A stretch of 20,078 bases of DNA from JADFSZ01 sp022560555 [NCBI: PVC group bacterium] (lineage in GTDB: Bacteria > GCA-001730085 > JADFSZ01): positions 1-20,078 of the forward strand of contig JADFSZ010000005.1 in the NCBI GenBank assembly GCA_022560555.1, given 5' to 3'. How positions within the stretch are numbered: the first letter of the stretch is position 1; each line of letters starts with the position of its first letter. The position numbers and the translations under genes were made by a program. The notes beneath the pieces were generated by a model, which worked only from the letters and a program-made list of their open reading frames with translations, ran no database searches and was not told the origin of the DNA. Shown one piece after another: positions 2,867 through 18,498 of the stretch.

Positions 2867-4336
2867 ATGGAACATCCTTCAAAAAAAACACAAACGGAAG
2901 TAACGATTTCAGAAAATCAACTTGCCGGTGATTATAAATTTGGTTTTACGACGGATGTTGAAACGGAAGATTTTCCCAAAGGTATCAACGAAGGCATCAT
3001 CCGGCTTATTTCTGAGAAAAGAAATGAACCGGAATTTATGTTGGAATTCCGCCTGAAAGCCTTTCGTCACTGGGAGACGCTCGAAGAGCCCCATTGGGCG
3101 CACCTGTATTATCCAAAGATTGATTATCAAGCCATCCGGTATTATTCGGCTGTGAAAAAGAAGGAGGATGGGCCGAAAAGTCTGGATGAAGTTGATCCTG
3201 AGGTTGTGAAAACATTTGAGCGCTTGGGAATCCCGGTGCAGGAACAAAAACGCTTGAGTGGTGTTGCCGTGGACGCTGTGTTTGACAGTATCTCAATGGG
3301 AACGACCCATCAGGATGTTCTCGCGAAAGCGGGTGTGATTTTTTGCTCATTTTCCGAAGCCATTCAGAAGCATCCCGAGCTCATACAAAAATATCTTGGC
3401 AGTGTTGTGCCGTACACGGACAATTTTTTCGCGGCCCTTAACGCTGCCGTGTTTAGCGATGGCTCCTTTTGCTATATTCCCAAAGGAGTGCGAAGTCCTT
3501 TAGAATTATCAACATATTTTCGTATCAATGCGATGGATACGGGGCAATTTGAAAGAACACTGATCGTGGCTGAAGAAGCGAGTTATGTCAGCTATCTCGA
3601 AGGCTGCACGGCCCCCAGCCGGGATGAAAATCAGCTTCACGCGGCTGTTGTGGAATTGATTACCATGAAGCATGCGGAAATCAAATATTCGACCGTGCAG
3701 AATTGGTATTCGGGTGATAAAGACGGGAAAGGCGGAATATTCAACTTTGTGACGAAACGGGGAAAATGTGTCGGAGCGCATTCTAAAATATCCTGGACGC
3801 AGGTGGAAGCCGGCGCGGCGATCACATGGAAATATCCAAGCGTGATCCTCCAGGGAGATTATTCTATCGGAGAATTTTATTCGGTCGCCTTAACCAACAA
3901 TAAGATGCAGGCGGATACGGGAACGAAAATGATTCATGTTGGTAAAAACACCCGGAGCAAAATCATCTCGAAAGGAATCTCCTGTGATCAGTCTGTGAAC
4001 AGTTATCGGGGGCTGGTTAAGATATTGTCCGGGGCTGAAAATGCCCGCAATTATTCGAATTGTGACTCCATGCTCGTGGGAGATCAATGTTCGGCGAACA
4101 CTTTTCCATATTTGGAGATTAATAATAACACAGCGACAGTTGAACACGAAGCCACAACATCCAAAATTAATGCCGAGCAGATTTTTTACCTGAAAAGCCG
4201 CGGCCTGGATGACGAAGAAGCTATTTCCCTTTTGATCAACGGGTACTGCAAAGATGTCTTTCGTGAACTCCCCCTGGAATTCTCCGTAGAAGCCATAAAA
4301 CTCCTCGAAATGAAATTGGAAGGAAGCGTAGGATAA
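2867..4336 (+). CDS. sufB: Fe-S cluster assembly scaffold protein SufB
   Basis: SufB is the scaffold core of the SUF machine; with SufD and the ATPase SufC it forms the SufBCD complex on which new Fe-S clusters are built in the cytoplasm. From the ATG at 2867 it has 489 residues, the usual length. The right-handed beta-helix core is clear. Residues matching functionally important E. coli positions are kept: C399 in CDSMLVGD (E. coli C405), H427-E428 in VEHEATTS (E. coli H433-E434), and C247 in YLEGCTAP (E. coli C254). ATG 2867 is preferred over an in-frame GTG at 2858 because the AAAGG site (2854-2858) overlaps the GTG and stands eight bases before the ATG. The gene lies between the Rrf2 regulator and sufC. 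Confidence 0.96.
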
Positions 4337-4342
4337 AAAAGA

Positions 4343-4405
4343 CATGAGTCATGTGTCATGAACTCAAAAACAAAAGTCATGACTCACTGCGCATGACCAA
4401 TGACG
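4343..4405. repeat. Degenerate heptanucleotide tandem tract between sufB and sufC
   Basis: Nine consecutive 7-bp units fit one register: CATGAGT, CATGTGT, CATGAAC, TCAAAAA, CAAAAGT, CATGACT, CACTGCG, CATGACC, AATGACG. Five of the nine begin CATG and a sixth differs there by one base. The tract starts seven bases after the sufB stop and fills much of the 144-bp spacer. Parts can also pair as inverted repeats (for example CATGAGT with a later ACTCA-like stretch). It resembles, in design only, the heptamer STRR repeats of cyanobacteria. Confidence 0.7.
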
Positions 4406-4480
4406 ATTCAATGCAGGTGATCAATCGAGGATATCAGCTAGTTACGTCATCATAATTCAAACACAGCAAAGGGAATAAAA

Positions 4481-5236
4481 ATGTTAGAAATTAAAGATTT
4501 ACACGTAAGCGTTGAAGAAACGCCGATCTTGAAGGGAGTCAACCTCAAGGTAAACGCGGGCGAAGTGCATGCGATTATGGGGCCCAACGGGTCCGGAAAA
4601 AGCACACTTGCCAAAGTGATCGCGGGGCATCCGGCGTATGAAGTGACACAAGGGAGCATCACATATGAAGTCAACTTTAAGGAGATAGATTTAATGGAGC
4701 TAGAGCCTCATGAACGGGCCAGAAAGGGTGTTTTTATGGCCTTTCAATATCCTGTCGAGGTTCCCGGTGTGACAAACACATCTTTTCTTCAGGCCGCGTT
4801 TAACGCAATCTGCCGCGACCAAGGTGCCGAAGAAATGGATGCGATTGATTTTGATGTCTATCTGCATGAAAAAATAAAATTGCTCAGTATGGATGAGAAA
4901 TATCTCAACCGCCCGCTGAATGTGGATTTTTCCGGCGGAGAGAAAAAGCGGAACGAAATCCTTCAAATGGCCGTGCTGACTCCGCGGATATCATTTTTGG
5001 ATGAAACAGATTCAGGCCTTGATATTGATGCCTTGAGGATCGTAGCGGCCGGAGTCAATAAACTTAAATCTAAAGATAACGCGATTGTTCTGATTACGCA
5101 CTACCAAAGACTCCTTAACTATATTGTTCCGGATTTTGTTCATATCATGATTGACGGGAAGATCGCTGAGACTGGCCATAAAGAGCTGGCCTTAACGGTT
5201 GAAGACCGTGGGTATGATTGGCTGAACAAAAAATAA
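4481..5236 (+). CDS. sufC: Fe-S cluster assembly ATPase SufC
   Basis: SufC is the soluble ABC-type ATPase that powers conformational change of SufB-SufD during cluster assembly. The 251 residues match the family length. Visible motifs: Walker [10 protein letters not shown] at 34-42, Q-loop in MAFQYP near 87-91, ABC signature SGGEK at 151-155, Walker B ISFLDE at 170-175 continuing TDSGLD (the SufC-typical D-loop region), and the switch histidine H207 in LITHYQ. An AAAGGGA site stands about six bases before ATG 4481. There is no membrane partner, as expected for SufC. The spacer before it (4337-4480) is unusually long for a suf operon and carries a repeat tract. Confidence 0.97.
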
Positions 5237-5278
5237 GTGTATTTCTAAAAAAACATTTTTAATAAATAAAGGAAATTT

Positions 5279-6631
5279 ATGGAAATTGATCGATCAATCA
5301 AAGATCCGTTTTTAGATAACTTGCAGCGCCTGAAGACATCAACGGAGAACGGACACCTGTCAAAAGGCGTGCGGGAAATCCAAGACAAGTTCTGGAATGA
5401 CCTTCTCGAAATGGGATTTCCGACTAGAAAAACTGAGGATTGGAAATATACAGATCTTCGTCCCATCACGTCTTCGGAATATCGATGGGCAAACTCGACG
5501 GAATTTATGCATGAGGATGATCTTAAAAGCTTTTGCGATGGTAGCGATGGGGTTTCTGTTGTCTTTATAAATGGATTATTGTCTGAAAAATACTCTCATT
5601 TGGATCAGTTGCCCGAAGGCATTACGATTCACTTTTTAGATGACATTTTGACTTCAACGGATGACGCAACAAGCCGGCTGCGCGATGTTATATATAAGAA
5701 CAATTTTGACGAGGCTAAAAAAATAAAATTAGAAGATCCTTTTTACCTCCTTAATCAAAGTGTCTCCAAAAATGGGTGTGTGATTGAAGTTAAAAAAAAT
5801 GCTGTGATCCAAGAGATGATTCATCTCGTCTATGTCACGGACGAAAACGCAAGCGGATGTATGATGAATCCGACGAATGTGATACTTGCGGGAGCGTCTT
5901 GTGAGGCCTCAGTTTTAGAAAGTTACGTGAGCTTTGATCAATCAAAGTTTTTTATGAATCCGATCTCGAAAGTGTATCTCGAAGAAAACGCAAAGCTTGA
6001 ATATGTGATTCTTCAAGCCGAGAGTTATGAGTCGTTTCATGTTAAGAATACGCAAATTGTTCAGAAAAAGGACAGTCAGCTGATGAACTATACTATATCT
6101 ATAGGAAGTGCATTGCTGAGGAATAGTTTGTGGATCAAGCTCGATGATGAGGGTTGTTACTCTAGTCTTGACGGGCTTTATATGCCTACGGGGAAGCAGC
6201 ATATGGACAACCACACATTTGTGGAGCACGCCAAGCCGAATTGTTCGAGCAATCAGCTTTATAAGGGGATCCTTACAGATGCCGCGCGCGCAGTTTTTAA
6301 CGGAAAGATTCTTGTTCGTCCCGGCGCCCAAAAAACGAATGCGTACCAGCTCAATAAAAATATTCTCTTGAGCCGGCAGAGCCATATAGACACAAAGCCG
6401 GAGCTGGAAATATATGCCGATGATGTCCGCTGTACGCACGGAGCCACCATCGGCCAATTAAATGAAGACGAAATATTTTATTTCGAAAGCCGGGGAGTAT
6501 CCAGAGAAAATGCCGTGCAGATGCTGTGCCATGCGTTCGCGAACAATGTTTTAGAACGCATAACACATAAAACGATAGCCGGAATTGTTATTCATCTTTT
6601 AGAAAAAAAATTCTCGTGGATGAGCAAATAA
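5279..6631 (+). CDS. sufD: Fe-S cluster assembly protein SufD
   Basis: SufD is the paralogue and partner of SufB in the SufBC2D scaffold, also linked to iron entry. The protein has 450 residues, within the family range. The N-terminal helical part includes 'FPTRKTEDWKYTDL' (47-60), a SufD hallmark. The C-terminal half is the shared SufB/SufD core with 'ELEIYADDVRCTHGAT' at 375-390. H387 there matches the E. coli SufD histidine (H360) implicated in cluster assembly at the SufB-SufD interface. The tail 'ESRGVSRENAVQMLCHAFANNVLERI' type helix is also typical. ATG 5279 has AAAGGA just upstream. It follows sufC by 42 bp and precedes sufS by 118 bp. Confidence 0.95.
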   Translation: MEIDRSIKDPFLDNLQRLKTSTENGHLSKGVREIQDKFWNDLLEMGFPTRKTEDWKYTDLRPITSSEYRWANSTEFMHEDDLKSFCDGSDGVSVVFINGLLSEKYSHLDQLPEGITIHFLDDILTSTDDATSRLRDVIYKNNFDEAKKIKLEDPFYLLNQSVSKNGCVIEVKKNAVIQEMIHLVYVTDENASGCMMNPTNVILAGASCEASVLESYVSFDQSKFFMNPISKVYLEENAKLEYVILQAESYESFHVKNTQIVQKKDSQLMNYTISIGSALLRNSLWIKLDDEGCYSSLDGLYMPTGKQHMDNHTFVEHAKPNCSSNQLYKGILTDAARAVFNGKILVRPGAQKTNAYQLNKNILLSRQSHIDTKPELEIYADDVRCTHGATIGQLNEDEIFYFESRGVSRENAVQMLCHAFANNVLERITHKTIAGIVIHLLEKKFSWMSK

Positions 6632-6634
6632 AGA

Positions 6635-6736
6635 AATCACAAAGACTTAAGGAGAAAGAGCTAAAATCAGAATCTCTGTGAACTTGCCGGCCGACAGGCT
6701 CTGTGTCCTTTATGGTGAATAAAAGAGGGCTTTAAC
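6635..6736. repeat. Intergenic repeat element, copy A (sufD-sufS)
   Basis: This spacer shares a long, nearly identical segment with the sufU-nfu spacer. The parts GCTAAAATCAGAAT, TCTGTGAAC and TGCC (6660-6688), then GCTCTGTGTCCTTT and TGGTGAA (6698-6718), then GCTTTAAC, occur in the same order and orientation at 8499-8568. The ends are imperfect inverted repeats (TCACAAAGAC near 6637 against GTCCTTTATGGTGA near 6705). Confidence 0.8.
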
Positions 6737-6749
6737 GAAATTAAAGATT

Positions 6750-7979
6750 ATGTTAACCATGGAAACGAATATATCTAAGATACGTCAAGATTTTCCTGCC
6801 TTAAAGCGCTTGGTGAGGGGTCGTGATCTCGTGTACTTGGATAATGCCGCGACCACGTTAAAACCTCAATCTGTTATTGACGCTATTACGCATTATTACA
6901 CGGATTTATCAAGCAATGTTCATCGAGGTGTGCATTTTTTATCCGAAGAAAGCACAGCCCGGTTTGAAGAGGCCCGGGAAAAAGTGTCTCAGTTTATCTC
7001 GGCCAGGCAAAGTGCCGAAATTGTATTTACGCGTGGAACAACGGATGCCATCAACCTTGTCTCTCAAAGCTACGGAAAAACTTTTATCAAGTCCGGGGAC
7101 GAAATTCTAATCACAGAGATGGAGCATCACTCGAATATTGTGTCCTGGCAAATTTTATGCAAAGAAAAAGGATGTGTTCTCAAGGTGGCCCCCATTACGG
7201 ATGAAGGGGAACTAGTCATGGATGAGTTTGAAAAACTCATCGGTCCTAAAACGAAGATGATTGCTCTTGTGTATGTTTCAAATGTTTTAGGAACCATCAA
7301 TCCGGTTAAGGATATTATCCGTCTGGCTCATGAAAGGAATATTCCTGTTTTGATTGATGGGGCGCAGGCCGTGGGGCAGTTTCCCGTGGATGTTGTGGAT
7401 CTGGATTGCGACTTTTTTGCGTTTTCGGCACATAAAATGTTCGGCCCGACCGGAGTTGGGGTTTTATACGCCAAAGCCGAATATTTGAATCTCATGCCTC
7501 CGATTCAAGGCGGTGGTGACATGATCCTGTCTGTCAGTTTTGACAAGACAACCTATAACACAATTCCTTATAAATTTGAAGCCGGCACACCGAACATTGC
7601 GGGTGTCATAGGTTTGGGGGCGGCCGTCGAATATATCAATCAGCTTGGATTTGAATCTATTGTGCAACATGAAAAAGATATTTCAGCTTATCTGACACAA
7701 TCTTTAGGAGAAGTTGAAGGCCTAAAAATTATTGGTAGGGCCAAGAATAAGGTTCCCATTGCTTCTTTTGTTTTGGATCATGTTCATCCGCATGATATCG
7801 GAACTATTATTGATGAAGAGGGAGTGGCCGTCCGTACAGGTCACCACTGCGCTCAACCGCTTATGTCTCGATATGGCTTGCCGGCAACCGCTCGTGCCTC
7901 TTTTTCGCTTTATAACACAAAAGAAGAAGTTGATATATTGATTAAAGCGATCGAAAAAGTGAAAGCGGTGTTTAAATAA
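6750..7979 (+). CDS. sufS: SufS-type cysteine desulfurase
   Basis: SufS is a pyridoxal-phosphate enzyme that takes sulfur from L-cysteine, leaving alanine, and passes the persulfide to the SUF scaffold. The 409 residues fit group II (SufS/CsdA) desulfurases. Visible: 'LDNAATTLKPQSV' near 30-42, 'EMEHHSNIVSW' near 123-133, the cofactor aspartate in LIDGAQAVGQ (201-210), the Schiff-base lysine K229 in FSAHKMFGPTG, and the persulfide cysteine C367 in RTGHHCAQPL, in the short-loop context of SufS enzymes. ATG 6750 and an in-frame ATG at 6759 are both possible starts; neither has a strong ribosome binding site. It is followed after one base by sufU, its expected sulfur acceptor. Confidence 0.95.
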   Translation: MLTMETNISKIRQDFPALKRLVRGRDLVYLDNAATTLKPQSVIDAITHYYTDLSSNVHRGVHFLSEESTARFEEAREKVSQFISARQSAEIVFTRGTTDAINLVSQSYGKTFIKSGDEILITEMEHHSNIVSWQILCKEKGCVLKVAPITDEGELVMDEFEKLIGPKTKMIALVYVSNVLGTINPVKDIIRLAHERNIPVLIDGAQAVGQFPVDVVDLDCDFFAFSAHKMFGPTGVGVLYAKAEYLNLMPPIQGGGDMILSVSFDKTTYNTIPYKFEAGTPNIAGVIGLGAAVEYINQLGFESIVQHEKDISAYLTQSLGEVEGLKIIGRAKNKVPIASFVLDHVHPHDIGTIIDEEGVAVRTGHHCAQPLMSRYGLPATARASFSLYNTKEEVDILIKAIEKVKAVFK

Positions 7980-7980
7980 C

Positions 7981-8436
7981 ATGACGGACAACAGAGAACT
8001 GTATCAGCAGGTCATACTGGAGCATAACCGTAAGCCCAGAAATTTTGGGAAAATCGAGACATATACCCATCGGGCCCATGGGGACAATCCTCTCTGTGGG
8101 GACGCCTATGATGTTTATCTATCCATTAACACCGATGGCTTGATTGAAGAGATCAATTTTGACGGCCATGGATGCGCTATCTCAAAAGCATCGGCATCCA
8201 TGATGACAGCCAGCCTCAAGGGGAAGACGGTTGAGGAAGCCGAAGGCTTGTTTGAAGAGTTTCATCAACTGATCATGAAAAAAATGGACCCGAACAAGGA
8301 TACGCATAAACTCGGGAAATTAACTGTTTTCTCGGGGATCTGGCAATATCCTGCTCGAGTCAAATGCGCGACATTGAGTTGGCATACGATGAAGGGTGCG
8401 CTCAATCATACGAGCGAGATCACAACAGAAGTATAA
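7981..8436 (+). CDS. sufU: SufU-type sulfur transfer protein
   Basis: SufU is a zinc protein of the IscU fold. In organisms like Bacillus it works as the sulfurtransferase that accepts persulfide from SufS, rather than as a cluster scaffold. The 151 residues keep the metal and active-site set: C39 and D41 in NPLCGD, C65 in GHGCAIS, and C129 in RVKCATLSWHT. The insertion between the second and third cysteine (about residues 95-118), which separates SufU from IscU, is present. The start lies one base after the sufS stop, implying tight coupling and a SufS-SufU pair. No sufE or sufA is seen, so this system resembles the SufBCDSU type familiar from Gram-positive bacteria, here with Gram-negative envelope genes nearby. 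Confidence 0.93.
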   Translation: MTDNRELYQQVILEHNRKPRNFGKIETYTHRAHGDNPLCGDAYDVYLSINTDGLIEEINFDGHGCAISKASASMMTASLKGKTVEEAEGLFEEFHQLIMKKMDPNKDTHKLGKLTVFSGIWQYPARVKCATLSWHTMKGALNHTSEITTEV

Positions 8437-8450
8437 AATCAAAAAGGAAT

Positions 8451-8568
8451 CACCGCAGAGATCACAAAGACCACAGAGAAAAGATTTAAAACATAAATGC
8501 TAAAATCAGAATTTCTGTGAACCTGCCTGCCTGCTCTGTGTCCTTTGTGGTGAAAAAAAGCTTTAACA
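8451..8568. repeat. Intergenic repeat element, copy B (sufU-nfu)
   Basis: This is the second copy of the element found between sufD and sufS. Its ends form an imperfect inverted repeat: TCACAAAGACCACAGAG (8462-8478) pairs with CTCTGTGTCCTTTGTGG (8534-8550), 14 of 17 positions. Between the arms lies the conserved core with GCTAAAATCAGAAT at 8499-8512 and a CCTG triplication at 8522-8533. It carries no gene and could fold into a long imperfect hairpin in the mRNA. Confidence 0.8.
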
Positions 8569-8589
8569 CATTACTAAAAGGAGGTATTT

Positions 8590-9153
8590 ATGCAAATCAT
8601 CATTAATGTGCAGAACACACCGAATCCAAATGCGTTAAAATTTATTGTGAACAGGGATGTAATTAAAAGCGGTGAAAAAGCATCTTTCGGCGGTCCTGAC
8701 GAAGCAGAAGGGATTGTAATTATTCAGAAGCTTTTTGAGATCCCGAATGTGACACAAGTTCATTTTTTTGAAAATGTGATTAGTGTGACTCAAGATGGTC
8801 AACAAGATTGGGATGTTGTTAGTGAAGAGATCAAGAAAGTGATACTGGAACATATTGTAGCGCATGATCCGAATTTTATAGAAAAACTGAGTACATTTGT
8901 ACCCAAAGTCGATCGTGAGCCCAAAAGCCCGGAATTCGCTAAAATTGACGAAATTCTTGATCGAACGGTAAGGCCTTATCTGCAAGGGGATGGGGGCGAT
9001 CTCGAGCTGATAAGTTATGAAAATCATATTTTGAAAGTGCTTTATCAAGGGGCATGCGGTTCGTGCCCAAGTTCAACGGCCGGAACGCTTCAAGCTATTC
9101 AGGGGATTTTACGTGATGAATTTGACTCGGAAATCGAAGTGATCACGACCTAA
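8590..9153 (+). CDS. Two-domain Nfu-type Fe-S scaffold/carrier protein
   Basis: The 187 residues combine two domains. Residues 1-90 match the Nfu N-terminal domain ('QNTPNPNALKFIV' near 8-20 is its signature). Residues 115-187 match the NifU C-terminal (Nfu) domain with the cluster-binding CGSC (C156, C159) in GACGSCPSS. The architecture is that of mitochondrial NFU1 and many bacterial Nfu proteins, which bind a cluster between subunits and hand it to client enzymes. A strong AAAGGAGG stands before ATG 8590. Its place after sufU suggests delivery of SUF-made clusters. It is not IscU- or SufA-like. The name nfu would suit it, but no single standard symbol applies. Confidence 0.92.
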   Translation: MQIIINVQNTPNPNALKFIVNRDVIKSGEKASFGGPDEAEGIVIIQKLFEIPNVTQVHFFENVISVTQDGQQDWDVVSEEIKKVILEHIVAHDPNFIEKLSTFVPKVDREPKSPEFAKIDEILDRTVRPYLQGDGGDLELISYENHILKVLYQGACGSCPSSTAGTLQAIQGILRDEFDSEIEVITT

Positions 9154-9178
9154 AAGTTTGCTTGCGCCTTTAGGTTTT
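9148..9178 (+). terminator. Weak hairpin at the nfu stop
   Basis: ACCTAAA (9148-9154) pairs with TTTAGGT (9169-9175) across a 14-base loop, followed by only a few T. It overlaps the nfu stop codon. It may attenuate transcription before the dismutase gene, but the stem is AT-rich and the T tract short. Confidence 0.25.
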
Positions 9179-9234
9179 ATGAACTAAACTGCCGAATATA
9201 TCACGCTAACCTAGTTTATTGAAGGAGGTTTCTC

Positions 9235-9867
9235 ATGGCTTATGAATTGCCGAAATTGCCGTATGAATTTAACGCGCTCGAACCTCATATTGACGCGAAG
9301 ACGATGGAAATTCATCACACCAAGCATCATCAAGCGTATATCACGAAAGTGAATGATGCTCTCCAAGGAACGGAATTTGAAAATCAAGCCATTGAAGATG
9401 TTATTGCCAACATCAATCAATTGCCGAAAGACAAACAGGGTGCCGTAAGAAACAACGGGGGCGGACATGCCAATCATTCGTTGTTTTGGCAGATTTTATC
9501 ATCTGAATCCGGAGCTCCCGGTGGGGAATTGGCCGAAGATATTCAGTCAACATTCGGAAGCTTTGAAAAGTTTCAAGTTGCTTTTGCCAATGCAGGAATG
9601 ACGCGGTTTGGTTCAGGCTGGGCTTGGCTCACGATTGATGAGGGCGGAAAACTGTGTGTATGTTCAACCCCCAATCAAGATAGCCCTCTGATGAAGGGAA
9701 TCGCGGAATGTCCGGGAAAGCCTATTTTGGGTTTAGACGTATGGGAACACGCGTATTATTTGAATTATCAAAACCGCCGGCCGGATTACATTAAAGCATT
9801 TTGGAATGTGGTCAATTGGAAAAAAGTCGGTGAGTTGTACACGGCGGCAAAAATGGCTAAAGCGTAA
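9235..9867 (+). CDS. sodA: Superoxide dismutase, Mn type
   Basis: This enzyme converts superoxide to oxygen and hydrogen peroxide. The 210 residues match the Fe/Mn dismutase family throughout. Metal ligands are H27 (MEIHHTKHH), H81 ([10 protein letters not shown]), D168 and H172 ([10 protein letters not shown]). The [10 protein letters not shown] context and '[10 protein letters not shown]' (144-153), with the glutamine at the Mn-enzyme position, favour a manganese or cambialistic enzyme over a strict Fe-SOD. There is no signal peptide, so it is cytoplasmic. GAAGGAGG stands eight bases before ATG 9235. It lies 81 bp after nfu at the end of the suf cluster and is followed by a strong terminator. 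Location suggests a role in protecting Fe-S clusters under iron limitation or oxidative stress. Confidence 0.96.
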
Positions 9868-9871
9868 AAGC

Positions 9872-9906
9872 CGTATTTCGGATATCGTATATCGTATTTC
9901 GTGAAA
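9872..9906. repeat. Heptanucleotide tandem tract after sodA
   Basis: Successive 7-bp units CGTATTT, CGGATAT, CGTATAT, CGTATTT and CGTGAAA run from five bases after the sodA stop into the terminator stem. The period matches the tract between sufB and sufC, but the unit sequence differs. Confidence 0.65.
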
Positions 9907-9935
9907 AACCCTGAAGAAAGTTCTTCAGGGTTTTT
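9904..9935. terminator. Bidirectional intrinsic terminator
   Basis: The stem CCCTGAAG (9909-9916) with CTTCAGGG (9923-9930) has a six-base loop and is flanked by A5 on the left and T6 on the right. It can therefore end transcription of sodA on the + strand and of the ferredoxin reductase gene (ending at 9949) on the - strand. This is the clearest terminator in the window. Confidence 0.9.
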
Positions 9936-9948
9936 TGTTTTAAAAACT

Positions 9949-11343
9949 TTAAGAAACAGGAGAGCCATCAAGAACCGCGATCATCTCCGCGATCGAGGTA
10001 AATTTTTCTCTGGGTTTTCCCTTGGCTTGTCCGTTTTCAATCTCTGCTTGATCGATTTTTTTCCAATCCGGAAAACTGACCACGCGGACATCACGGCTCT
10101 TTAAGAGATCTAGGACAGAATCCGTAGACGGATTTTTGCATGGGGCCAAGGTCGGGGCATCAGCCAGTATTAACTGGACCGTAGCGATGCTATCCGGCTT
10201 ATTAGTTCCGATCACGCCGCTGGGGCCGCGCTTGATCCATCCTGCGGCGTAGAGACCAGGGACGGTTTGATTGTTGTCGGTGATTCTCCCGTCTCGGTTG
10301 GGAAAGATCCCCCGTTTATCATCAAACGGAACGCCGGGAATAGCAATCCCCCTGTATCCTACGCTTCGAAACAGGAGCCCGCAGGAGAGCTCCTGAGTTT
10401 CGCCGGTGCCCTTGGCTTTTTGACTAAAAGCCTCACCCGTGAGTTCATTTTTTTCCAATAGTATTTTTTCGAGTTTGTTGTTCCCGATAAGTTCAATAGG
10501 GCTTTGAAAAAAATGGATAATGAATTTCTTTGATTTTTGACTTGCAGGGGATCTTGTCAAAAATTCTTGAAAAACTTTCCAGTTTCTCTGACTCAGCGTG
10601 TTTTTAGCATCGTCAAGTTCGACTTGGCTTGCGGTATTCAGCGTTAAATCTTCCGGATTATTGAAGACAGGATCACAGTCGGTAAGTTCTCCAAATTCAG
10701 CAATTTCAACTTTTGTGAATTTTGCCTGAATCGGGCCTCGTCGTCCGATGAGATGAATTTCTTTGATTTTGCTTTCGGCCAAAGCGTCAAGCGCGTGCTG
10801 AGCCATATCGGTGGTTCTGAGTTCATCCACGGTTTTAGAAAGGATTCGTGAAACATCCATGGCCACATTTCCTTGTCCGATAATGATAGCGACTTCATGG
10901 GACAGATCAAATGTGCGGTCCTGATAATCGGGATGTCCGTTGTACCAGCCGACAAATTCGGTCGCGGTATAACTGCCCGTGAGATCTTCGCCGGGAATGC
11001 CTAAACGACGGTCTGTCTCGGCTCCACAGCTGAACAATATAGCGTCATAATGTGTTCTTAGTTCATCCACCGAGAGGTTCTTTCCAATATTGACGTTTCC
11101 TAAAAAATGAAAGCGTTCATGAGCTGCCGTTTTTTCGTAAAGCTTAATAACACTTTTGATTTTTGGATGATCAGGTGCCACGCCGCCGCGGACCAGGCCG
11201 AAGGGGATGGGAAGCCGGTCATACATATCGACATCGACGACACGATCAGATTTTAACAAAGCTTCGGCTGCGTAAAATCCGCTGGGGCCGCTTCCGATAA
11301 TAGCGACGCGTAGGGGCCTTGATTCTTCTCCAAGGGTGCTCAT
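9949..11343 (-). CDS. Ferredoxin-NADP reductase, adrenodoxin-reductase/FprA type
   Basis: A soluble FAD enzyme that moves electrons between NADPH and ferredoxin. The 464 residues match the FprA/adrenodoxin reductase family (about 450-460). Seen in order: FAD-binding GSGPSG at 17-22, '[17 protein letters not shown]' near 45-61 (a family signature), NADP-binding GQGNVA at 156-161, the 'GRRGP' arginine pair at 200-204 that fits the NADP phosphate, and the C-terminal FAD element '[15 protein letters not shown]'. On the - strand a GAGGAG site stands about eight bases before the ATG at 11341-11343. It is the second gene behind the DtxR-like regulator, 37 bp away, so iron or manganese control is likely. 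It could supply electrons for Fe-S assembly at SUF, but that is inference. It shares its terminator with sodA. Confidence 0.92.
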
Positions 11344-12013: not shown

Positions 12014-12105
12014 CAGAGGGCTTCAAACTATATTCTTTCTAACTCATTCATTGTCAATAAATTAAGACGTACTTGGGCGCGGTGTCCCGGGACGAAAAAT
12101 AGTTA

Positions 12106-12134
12106 TTGACACTTGTCAGATGTTCATGTAAATT
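12106..12134 (+). promoter_or_regulatory. Promoter of the phnDCE-type operon
   Basis: TTGACA at 12106-12111 and TAAATT at 12129-12134 are 17 bp apart. Transcription would begin near 12141, inside a second dyad with TGTTAA (12141-12146) and TTAACA (12153-12158) arms. TTGTCA recurs at 11999, 12051 and 12113, partly because its complement resembles a -35 box. Confidence 0.65.
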
Positions 12135-12140
12135 AACGGA

Positions 12141-12158
12141 TGTTAAGCATAGTTAACA
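12141..12158. promoter_or_regulatory. Candidate operator at the phnD transcription start
   Basis: TGTTAA and TTAACA form perfect 6-bp arms around six bases, lying just downstream of the -10 box. The position suits a repressor site. The short AT-rich arms could also arise by chance. Confidence 0.35.
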
Positions 12159-12204
12159 AAAGTTTTTTGAACCGCCTGAGCACAAGAGATAAGGAGCTGC
12201 GAGC

Positions 12205-18402: not shown

Positions 18403-18406
18403 TCAA

Positions 18407-18427
18407 AAATGGTAAATCGTAAATGGT
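18407..18427. repeat. Three-unit heptanucleotide repeat after pntB
   Basis: AAATGGT, AAATCGT and AAATGGT stand in tandem four bases after the pntB stop, with one mismatch in 21 bases. The 7-bp period is the same as in the tracts after sufB and sodA. Confidence 0.6.
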
Positions 18428-18498
18428 AAGATAAAAACCGTTAAGCAGGAATACGGAAATTCTTCAAACTTATAACTCCGAACTGACTAAGGAGAAAC

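Follow-up and report, generated by a model that had tools for sequence, protein, structure and literature searches.

Tandem repeats built from seven-base units have been described in several bacterial lineages. The short tandemly repeated repetitive sequences of cyanobacteria (STRRs; Mazel et al. 1990, as cited in PMC2670836) usually have 7-bp units and lie near or between genes of one operon, where an action in transcript stability or translational coupling is considered possible; a hairpin-capable STRR has been reported in Nostoc (PMC2670836). Rehm et al. describe GGGAATC and GGGGA(C/T)T repeats of Xanthomonas and Nostoc that sit between aligned open reading frames, near the stop codon on the coding strand, with a depletion between divergently oriented genes (PMC4692102). 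The Nostoc heptamers prefer the non-coding strand and form few inverted pairs, inverted pairs being found in Xanthomonas; the units, with three or four G in a row, form G-quadruplexes (PMC4692102). TAACTGA repeats occur in marine Beggiatoaceae, cyanobacteria and Bacteroidetes, and are mixed with other heptamers in Microcystis (PMC4679880), while in Geobacter metallireducens dispersed elements of four and five heptanucleotide units, with more than one word, have been proposed as regulatory sites (PMC2700814). According to Mrazek et al. 2007, as cited, heptamers are the commonest long unit in most genomes (PMC4679880), with polymerase slippage in 7-nt steps as the proposed origin (PMC4679880, PMC4692102). 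Heptamer repeats with a placement similar to that found here are already published, and the kind is therefore known.

The stretch of DNA analysed here in full, 20,078 nt long and referred to as the window, contains such a tract between two suf genes. The features of this region are as follows.

2867–4336, + strand: sufB, the upstream gene (NCBIfam NF008773, 858.8 bits; gene call, with an ORF-based start at 2858; stop codon at 4334–4336).
4337–4480, + strand: sufB–sufC spacer, 144 nt (window sequence).
4343–4405, + strand: degenerate tandem-heptamer tract, core CATGANN, nine units, 6 nt past the sufB stop (period-7 concordance; TRF array at 4343–4361).
4345–4353, + strand: left arm of a perfect 9-nt inverted repeat, TGAGTCATG (repeat search).
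4378–4386, + strand: right arm of the perfect 9-nt inverted repeat, CATGACTCA (repeat search).
4481–5236, + strand: sufC, the downstream gene (NCBIfam TIGR01978, 350.8 bits).

The tract consists of nine 7-mers in one register: CATGAGT, CATGTGT, CATGAAC, TCAAAAA, CAAAAGT, CATGACT, CACTGCG, CATGACC and AATGACG. An earlier note on this DNA had described nine 7-bp units in a single register, most of them beginning with CATG. The register stands, as none of 1000 dinucleotide shuffles of the spacer matched the period-7 concordance of the tract; "most" was too generous for five units out of nine, although all five CATG of the spacer do share one phase. In-phase concordance is 0.476 at period 7, against 0.20–0.29 at periods 3–6 and 8–13, and returns to 0.44 at the harmonic periods 14 and 21. 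When any period from 5 to 12 was permitted, one of 200 shuffles attained the same concordance. A broader, imperfect inverted pair (4343–4361 with 4377–4395) is 74% complementary, and the inverted partner of this tract, taken alone, is not significant (p 0.06). The same spacer measures 7 nt in G001 (locus L062), the one other genome of the phylum compared. By its local lag-7 score of 9.0, the lowest of three tracts in the window and below the cut-off of 10 used elsewhere, the tract on its own is weak, a point in favour of chance periodicity or a low-complexity artefact of AT-rich spacers.

The earlier note had also placed tracts of the same 7-bp period behind sodA and pntB, and both TRF and a lag scan recover them.

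9872–9902, + strand: second tract, CGTATTT CGGATAT CGTATAT CGTATTT CGT, 4 nt past the SOD stop (TRF, lag scan).
9904–9935, + strand: perfect hairpin with 15-nt arms and a T-run, an intrinsic terminator, after the SOD heptamer tract and outside it (repeat search, folding).
18407–18429, + strand: third tract, AAATGGT AAATCGT AAATGGT AA, a member of the GTAAATS family, 4 nt past the pntB stop (TRF, lag scan; pattern matches at 18405 and 18412).

Three of the nine TRF rows for the window are period-7 arrays (4343–4361, 9872–9902 and 18407–18429). In the lag scan the SOD tract scores 14 and the pntB tract 11, and 60 order-1 resampled windows gave a mean of 0.08 segments like these two. NCBIfam supports the names sufB, sufC, superoxide dismutase and pntB, with the SOD and PntB matches falling below the equivalog curated cut-offs. 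The terminator at 9904–9935 is missing from the output of a simple terminator scan (4200–10100). Since the SOD tract precedes this separate, perfect terminator, it probably lies within the transcript. None of the heptamer tracts of the window itself has the G+C-rich stem and T-run of an intrinsic terminator, and the window has no Rfam match at gathering scores.

Other phased sequences are present in the window. The sufU–nifU spacer contains an inverted element phased at 9 bp.

8451–8552, + strand: 9-bp-phased inverted element, CACCGCAGAG ... CTTTGTGGTG, in the sufU–nifU spacer (best period-9 window at 8441, concordance 0.460, a value taken without shuffle comparison).

Its design is that of the 7-bp tracts with another period, and two similar minus-strand matches lie near positions 16–86 of locus L091. 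The highest period-10 concordance among the window spacers, 0.536 and likewise without shuffle comparison, belongs to 12102–12164. At 103–163, AGTCTATTTTGCCATA recurs at 20-bp spacing, with a copy of AAGGAACCTTT on either side, upstream of a putative secretion-type ATPase gene; by eye, the secretion-ATPase-like region (179–1952) extends over two overlapping ORFs, 179–772 and 744–1952, perhaps through a frameshift.

The source genome (G000) is a 1.66-Mb draft of 222 contigs, 80 of which were analysed: a first set of 20, 17 of them with matches to the main word described below, followed by 60 chosen by contig number, among which six have main-word matches (27 of 222 genome-wide). The spacers of these 60 contigs (407 kb in total) yielded 18 lag-7 segments with a score of at least 10, where other lags below 14 gave 0–2. 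Lags 14 and 21 gave 11 and 5 segments, and up to lag 15 no lag other than 7 and 14 is prominent. When the spacers were resampled at order 2, lag 7 averaged 2.45 segments over 20 runs and never exceeded 8. The segments are concentrated outside genes (18 in 43 kb of spacer versus 4 in 364 kb of coding DNA), and a subset of 20 contigs lacking any main-word match still gave nine segments at this score, with 0–3 at other lags up to 13. The excess of lag-7 identity over shuffled spacer DNA on which the earlier note had staked its case is thus present for tracts, and in spacers only. The bulk lag-7 match fraction of the spacers is not elevated (0.268, versus 0.256–0.277 at the other lags examined), so that the signal sits in discrete tracts. 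Extrapolated very roughly from the 407-kb sample, the genome would hold some 50–100 degenerate tandem-heptamer repeats. In 235 kb of G001, whose SufB is 70% identical, four lag-7 segments were found against a null of 4.05, which is no excess.

These counts refute chance periodicity or an AT-rich artefact, which we regard as barely conceivable despite the low score of the sufB tract. The tracts are a genuine genome-wide feature and belong to the class of heptameric repeats. As in STRRs, the units are tandem and 7 bp long, and the loci are numerous and mainly intergenic within one genome; the kinship with cyanobacterial STRRs suggested in the earlier note is borne out. Location near or between genes and, in some cases, hairpin potential are also shared with the cyanobacterial sequences, whereas the units here are strongly degenerate, the tracts are tied to stop codons and the host belongs to another phylum. 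A separate AT-rich family accounts for segments at spacer lags 16 and 17 (5 and 7, respectively), with 16/17-bp phased arrays resembling TTTTTCATTAAAAATA at L056 12251–12346, L073 261–331 and 8692–8759, L098 12611–12687 and L100 9863–9911.

Placement was analysed in the 80 contigs plus the window, a set comprising 289 clean spacers of at least 25 nt, of which 33 carry a tract; the results on tract words, placement, orientation, paired ends, inverted partners and units all use a set that includes the 17 contigs chosen for GTAAAT matches. The association with stop codons noted earlier for each tract of the window (gaps of 6, 4 and 4 nt for sufB, SOD and pntB) extends across the genome, with 18 of 36 stop-side distances at or below 8 nt. 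Random placement in the same spacers predicts 8.8 (equalled in 0 of 4000 trials), and because the comparison is made within those spacers, the excess is not a by-product of their being short. Start codons do not anchor the tracts (5 of 30 start-side distances at or below 8 nt, 7.2 expected). By spacer type, tracts occupy 28 of the 251 codirectional spacers, 4 of the 10 convergent ones and 1 of the 28 divergent ones, the last class being small. Nearness to the stop between codirectional genes, as in Rehm et al. 2015, is thus also seen here. The tracts share with the TAACTGA repeats the character of genome-wide, intergenic, direct heptamer repeats with a patchy distribution across phyla, but the BOGUAY copies lie mostly just before start codons (PMC4679880), and those described here just after stops.

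Of the 55 tracts in the sampled contigs with a lag-7 score of at least 10.5, 25 belong to a single word family, GTAA(A/T)TN. The pntB word AAATSGT is part of this family, and the sufB word CATGANN falls outside it; CGTATNT and AGTTCGG are further words of the genome. The earlier proposal that each locus has its own word consequently holds for the three tracts of the window and fails genome-wide, and the idea drawn from it, of a mechanism that keeps period rather than sequence, is left unsupported by the shared family. The pattern GTAAATNGTAAATNGTAAAT has 85 matches in the genome with up to two mismatches, versus 28 for the reversed pattern, a control that has letters in common with one of the word's rotations. 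In Geobacter metallireducens, too, the elements are dispersed, multi-copy tandem heptamers of several words, although the words differ from those found here (PMC2700814).

Behind stop codons the family lies in sense orientation. The sampled contigs contain 70 copies of CCGTAA(A/T)T, of which 24 are outside genes. Between −6 and +8 of a stop codon, CCGTAAWT is present in 16 sense copies and no antisense copy, where seven scrambles give 0–2 each; in 5 of the 16 the stop codon is formed by the word's own TAA. The sense strand has more G than C in 19 of 20 stop-proximal tracts, with one tie, a rule that has few independent instances as these tracts are mostly of one word family. In tract-free spacers the counts at the matching position are 1168 for G and 1002 for C. 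Start-proximal tracts, 15 in number, are unbiased (7 against 8).

These observations bear on an origin by local slippage alone, whereby 7-nt steps of the polymerase would create tracts independently in unselected spacers, where they then decay, leaving a common period and no common word. The prevalence of heptamers among long units across most genomes (PMC4679880, citing Mrazek et al.) fits such an origin, as do the many other heptamer words used by unrelated genomes, a whole-unit difference in one of four homologous viral arrays compared below, and a 15-unit TCTGTNN array (L029 17262–17371) which, by eye, contains a 42-bp (six-unit) higher-order repeat and adjoins a GTAAAT array. One family in 25 of 55 tracts, with a single orientation behind stops, is not what it predicts, and neither is the similarity of the units. 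GTAAWT units of one tract resemble each other no more than they resemble units of other tracts (p 0.39 for 20 tracts; p 0.32 for 25 tracts with 117 units), and the seventh base alone gives p 0.17. The result favours a stock of units that is old or dispersed over fresh copying from neighbours, but exchangeable units are also expected of very old slippage arrays. We consider slippage alone unlikely, while giving it more weight than the further alternatives discussed below.

One of these is that the tracts are selected arrays of binding sites, each with a core of 5–6 nt and a free base, for a protein that would touch successive units at 7-nt intervals on transcript or DNA. Such an array would act on mRNA 3' ends or on the coupling of adjacent genes. 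In the 117 units of the GTAAAT family, positions 1–6 are conserved at 77–96% and position 7 is nearly free (G53 C29 A20 T15), but membership is itself set by positions 1–6, so that their conservation is favoured. The preferred side of the stop codon would suit a binding site, as would a pair of viral arrays (L241/L262) that differ at the seventh base only. A word-free test found no concentration of variation (p 0.40 for G000, 31 tracts; p 0.42 for G336, 7 tracts), and position-specific variation was rejected as a sign of selection; a p of 0.003 from cross-genome loci was discounted, most of these having been fetched by patterns that leave the variable base free. With words that vary between loci and no candidate protein, selected binding, including the proposed action on mRNA ends or coupling, seems distinctly unlikely to us, more so than slippage.

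Some tracts have inverted partners. Ends of the form CCGTAAWT...AWTTACGG with heptamer arms, 135–162 nt apart, occur at four loci (L026, L034, L039 and L040). A relaxed two-end search returned 13 pairs, five rows of which derive from these four loci; the remaining pairs are without a second arm, lie partly inside called genes or, for L043, match strictly without heptamers. Miniature inverted-repeat and foldback elements form a class marked by terminal inverted repeats. Here, a few copies have inverted ends together with direct-repeat arms, and most have one arm only.

Phased words could alternatively represent the arms of stem-loops that serve as terminators or stabilise mRNA ends, a possibility for which the hairpin-capable STRR of Nostoc (PMC2670836) provides a precedent. 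A significant inverted partner was found for 6 of 21 stop-proximal tracts, and a folding z below −2 for 7 of 19 tract spacers versus 7 of 60 tract-free spacers, a difference that is not significant (p 0.17); the reversed hexamer TWAATG was dropped as a control for this comparison because it overlaps the real word TAAATG. Hairpins were rejected as a general explanation on this result. Moreover, the sufB tract lies between two in-line suf genes in a spacer with a z of −0.51, the pntB spacer has a z of −0.25, and the SOD tract is followed by a separate, perfect terminator. Hairpins and terminators fail to account for most tracts, and we judge a stem-loop origin improbable. A link to RAYT-REP systems was also rejected, since the 1.9–3.2 kb loci surrounding the three Y1-transposase genes of the genome contain no lag-7 tract with a score of at least 8; the search, which covered Y1 transposases, thus gave no mobilising enzyme for the tracts.

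Beyond the source genome, four exact copies of GTAAWTN occur in 17 of 386 genomes, the source included, from 16 genera. The scramble GATAWTN was found in five of the 386 genomes (9 matches) and the reversed word in six (8 matches), some of the latter owing to letters in common with one of its rotations. Three other words, taken from degenerate tracts of the source genome, were searched in the 17 GTAAWTN-positive and 38 further genomes, including G001. Among these genomes, ACTCCGA x3 was found only in G094, G241 and G336, ACAGARN x3.7 in G114, G251, G336 and once in G130, and AACYRGA x3 in the source genome only; neither ACTCCGA x3 nor ACAGARN x3.7 has an exact match in the source genome, where both words are degenerate. 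Reversed controls matched for AACYRGA in G114 and for ACAGARN in G114 and G010. A general shared vocabulary was rejected on comparison of de novo words with those of G000 (p 0.07–0.09 for G336, 1.0 for G251, 1.0 for G114 and 0.13–0.94 for G094), so that sharing is apparent only for particular words picked from the source genome.

The unrelated genome G336 was sampled over 313 kb in 20 stretches, three of which contain known matches. It has 13 lag-7 segments with a score of at least 14, other lags giving 0–5 save for the multiples 14, 21 and 28 (11, 9 and 8); at a score of 10, lag 12 rivals lag 7 (18 versus 17 segments). Stop-side distances of at most 8 nt again exceed expectation (8 of 12 versus 4.8, p 0.003), and start-side distances do not (2 of 10 versus 2.8). 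The sense-strand rule of the source genome does not hold in G336. The GTAATT family has the opposite orientation to that in the source genome, and GTTCGGA has the same orientation as the AGTTCGG of the source.

Among viral contigs, GTAAWTN x4 was found in 67 stretches, its scramble in 40 and the window word TCATGAN (nearly three copies) in five; as this difference is mild only, carriage by phages was rejected as the vehicle. In two related viral contigs (L206, L227 and L241; L209, L226 and L262), the first with phage tail domains, GTAATTY arrays lie mostly 1–11 nt upstream of start codons. The pair also carries AAGAAWT, TAATTGA and TCTTAAT arrays. Of four selected homologous arrays, two show no difference, a third departs by a whole unit plus one other base, and the pair L241/L262 differs as given above. 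Locus L213, on a viral contig, carries AATTACG and TAATTCG arrays in two inverted pairs next to stops.

It is conceivable that unrelated bacteria and some phage-like contigs share a small heptamer vocabulary (GTAAWTN, AGTTCGG, ACAGARN) in a fixed register, which in at least two genomes lies directly behind stop codons, through a common trans-acting factor that would write or read DNA or RNA there in 7-nt steps. We think such a factor improbable.

The reading we tentatively prefer, at slightly less than an even chance, is that the tracts are dispersed, stop-adjacent repeats, some of them foldback-like, in which the 7-nt register persists, as opposed to slippage products private to each locus. 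The tracts occupy spacers that are intercistronic or 3' of a gene, and half begin no more than 8 nt from a stop codon. The main family often opens in the sense direction after the stop with (A-rich) CCGTAA(A/T)T(G/C)G, followed by at least three GTAA(A/T)TN units. In a few copies the far end is inverted, as A(A/T)TTACGG, and the whole is a foldback-like unit of 135–162 bp. Once seeded, units would change by substitution and probably also as whole 7-nt units are gained or lost, which would allow the register to persist. Placement behind stops would most simply mean that the tracts do no harm at that position within operons; by analogy with STRRs, they may also serve in mRNA stability or translational coupling. 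In favour of dispersal are the confinement of the lag-7 excess to spacers, the anchoring to stops here and in G336, the sense orientation, the many loci that share a word with exchangeable units, the four loci with both ends, and the contrast between the 144-nt sufB–sufC spacer and its 7-nt counterpart in G001. Against it are the small share of stop-proximal tracts with a significant inverted partner, the Y1 loci that lack tracts and the strand rule that does not extend to G336. As CATGANN falls outside the main family, the evidence does not extend to dispersal of the word of the sufB tract.

PMC4692102, PMC4679880, PMC2670836 and PMC2700814 leave the prevalence of tandem units of exactly seven bases in bacteria unexplained. 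The tracts described here share the placement near stops of the Xanthomonas and Nostoc repeats, and differ in that their units lack the three- or four-G runs associated with G-quadruplexes; the longest G or C run in the examined tracts (33 spacers) is 3, and weak two-tetrad structures would still be compatible with them. Closeness to stops accompanies words without three-G runs, and is repeated in an unrelated genome with other words, which makes the G-quadruplex unlikely as a general reason. Dispersal, harmless placement and a role at mRNA ends are the options that remain. Of most use are the tight tie to stop codons, seen in two genomes that are not related, the words without three-G runs and the seemingly exchangeable units.
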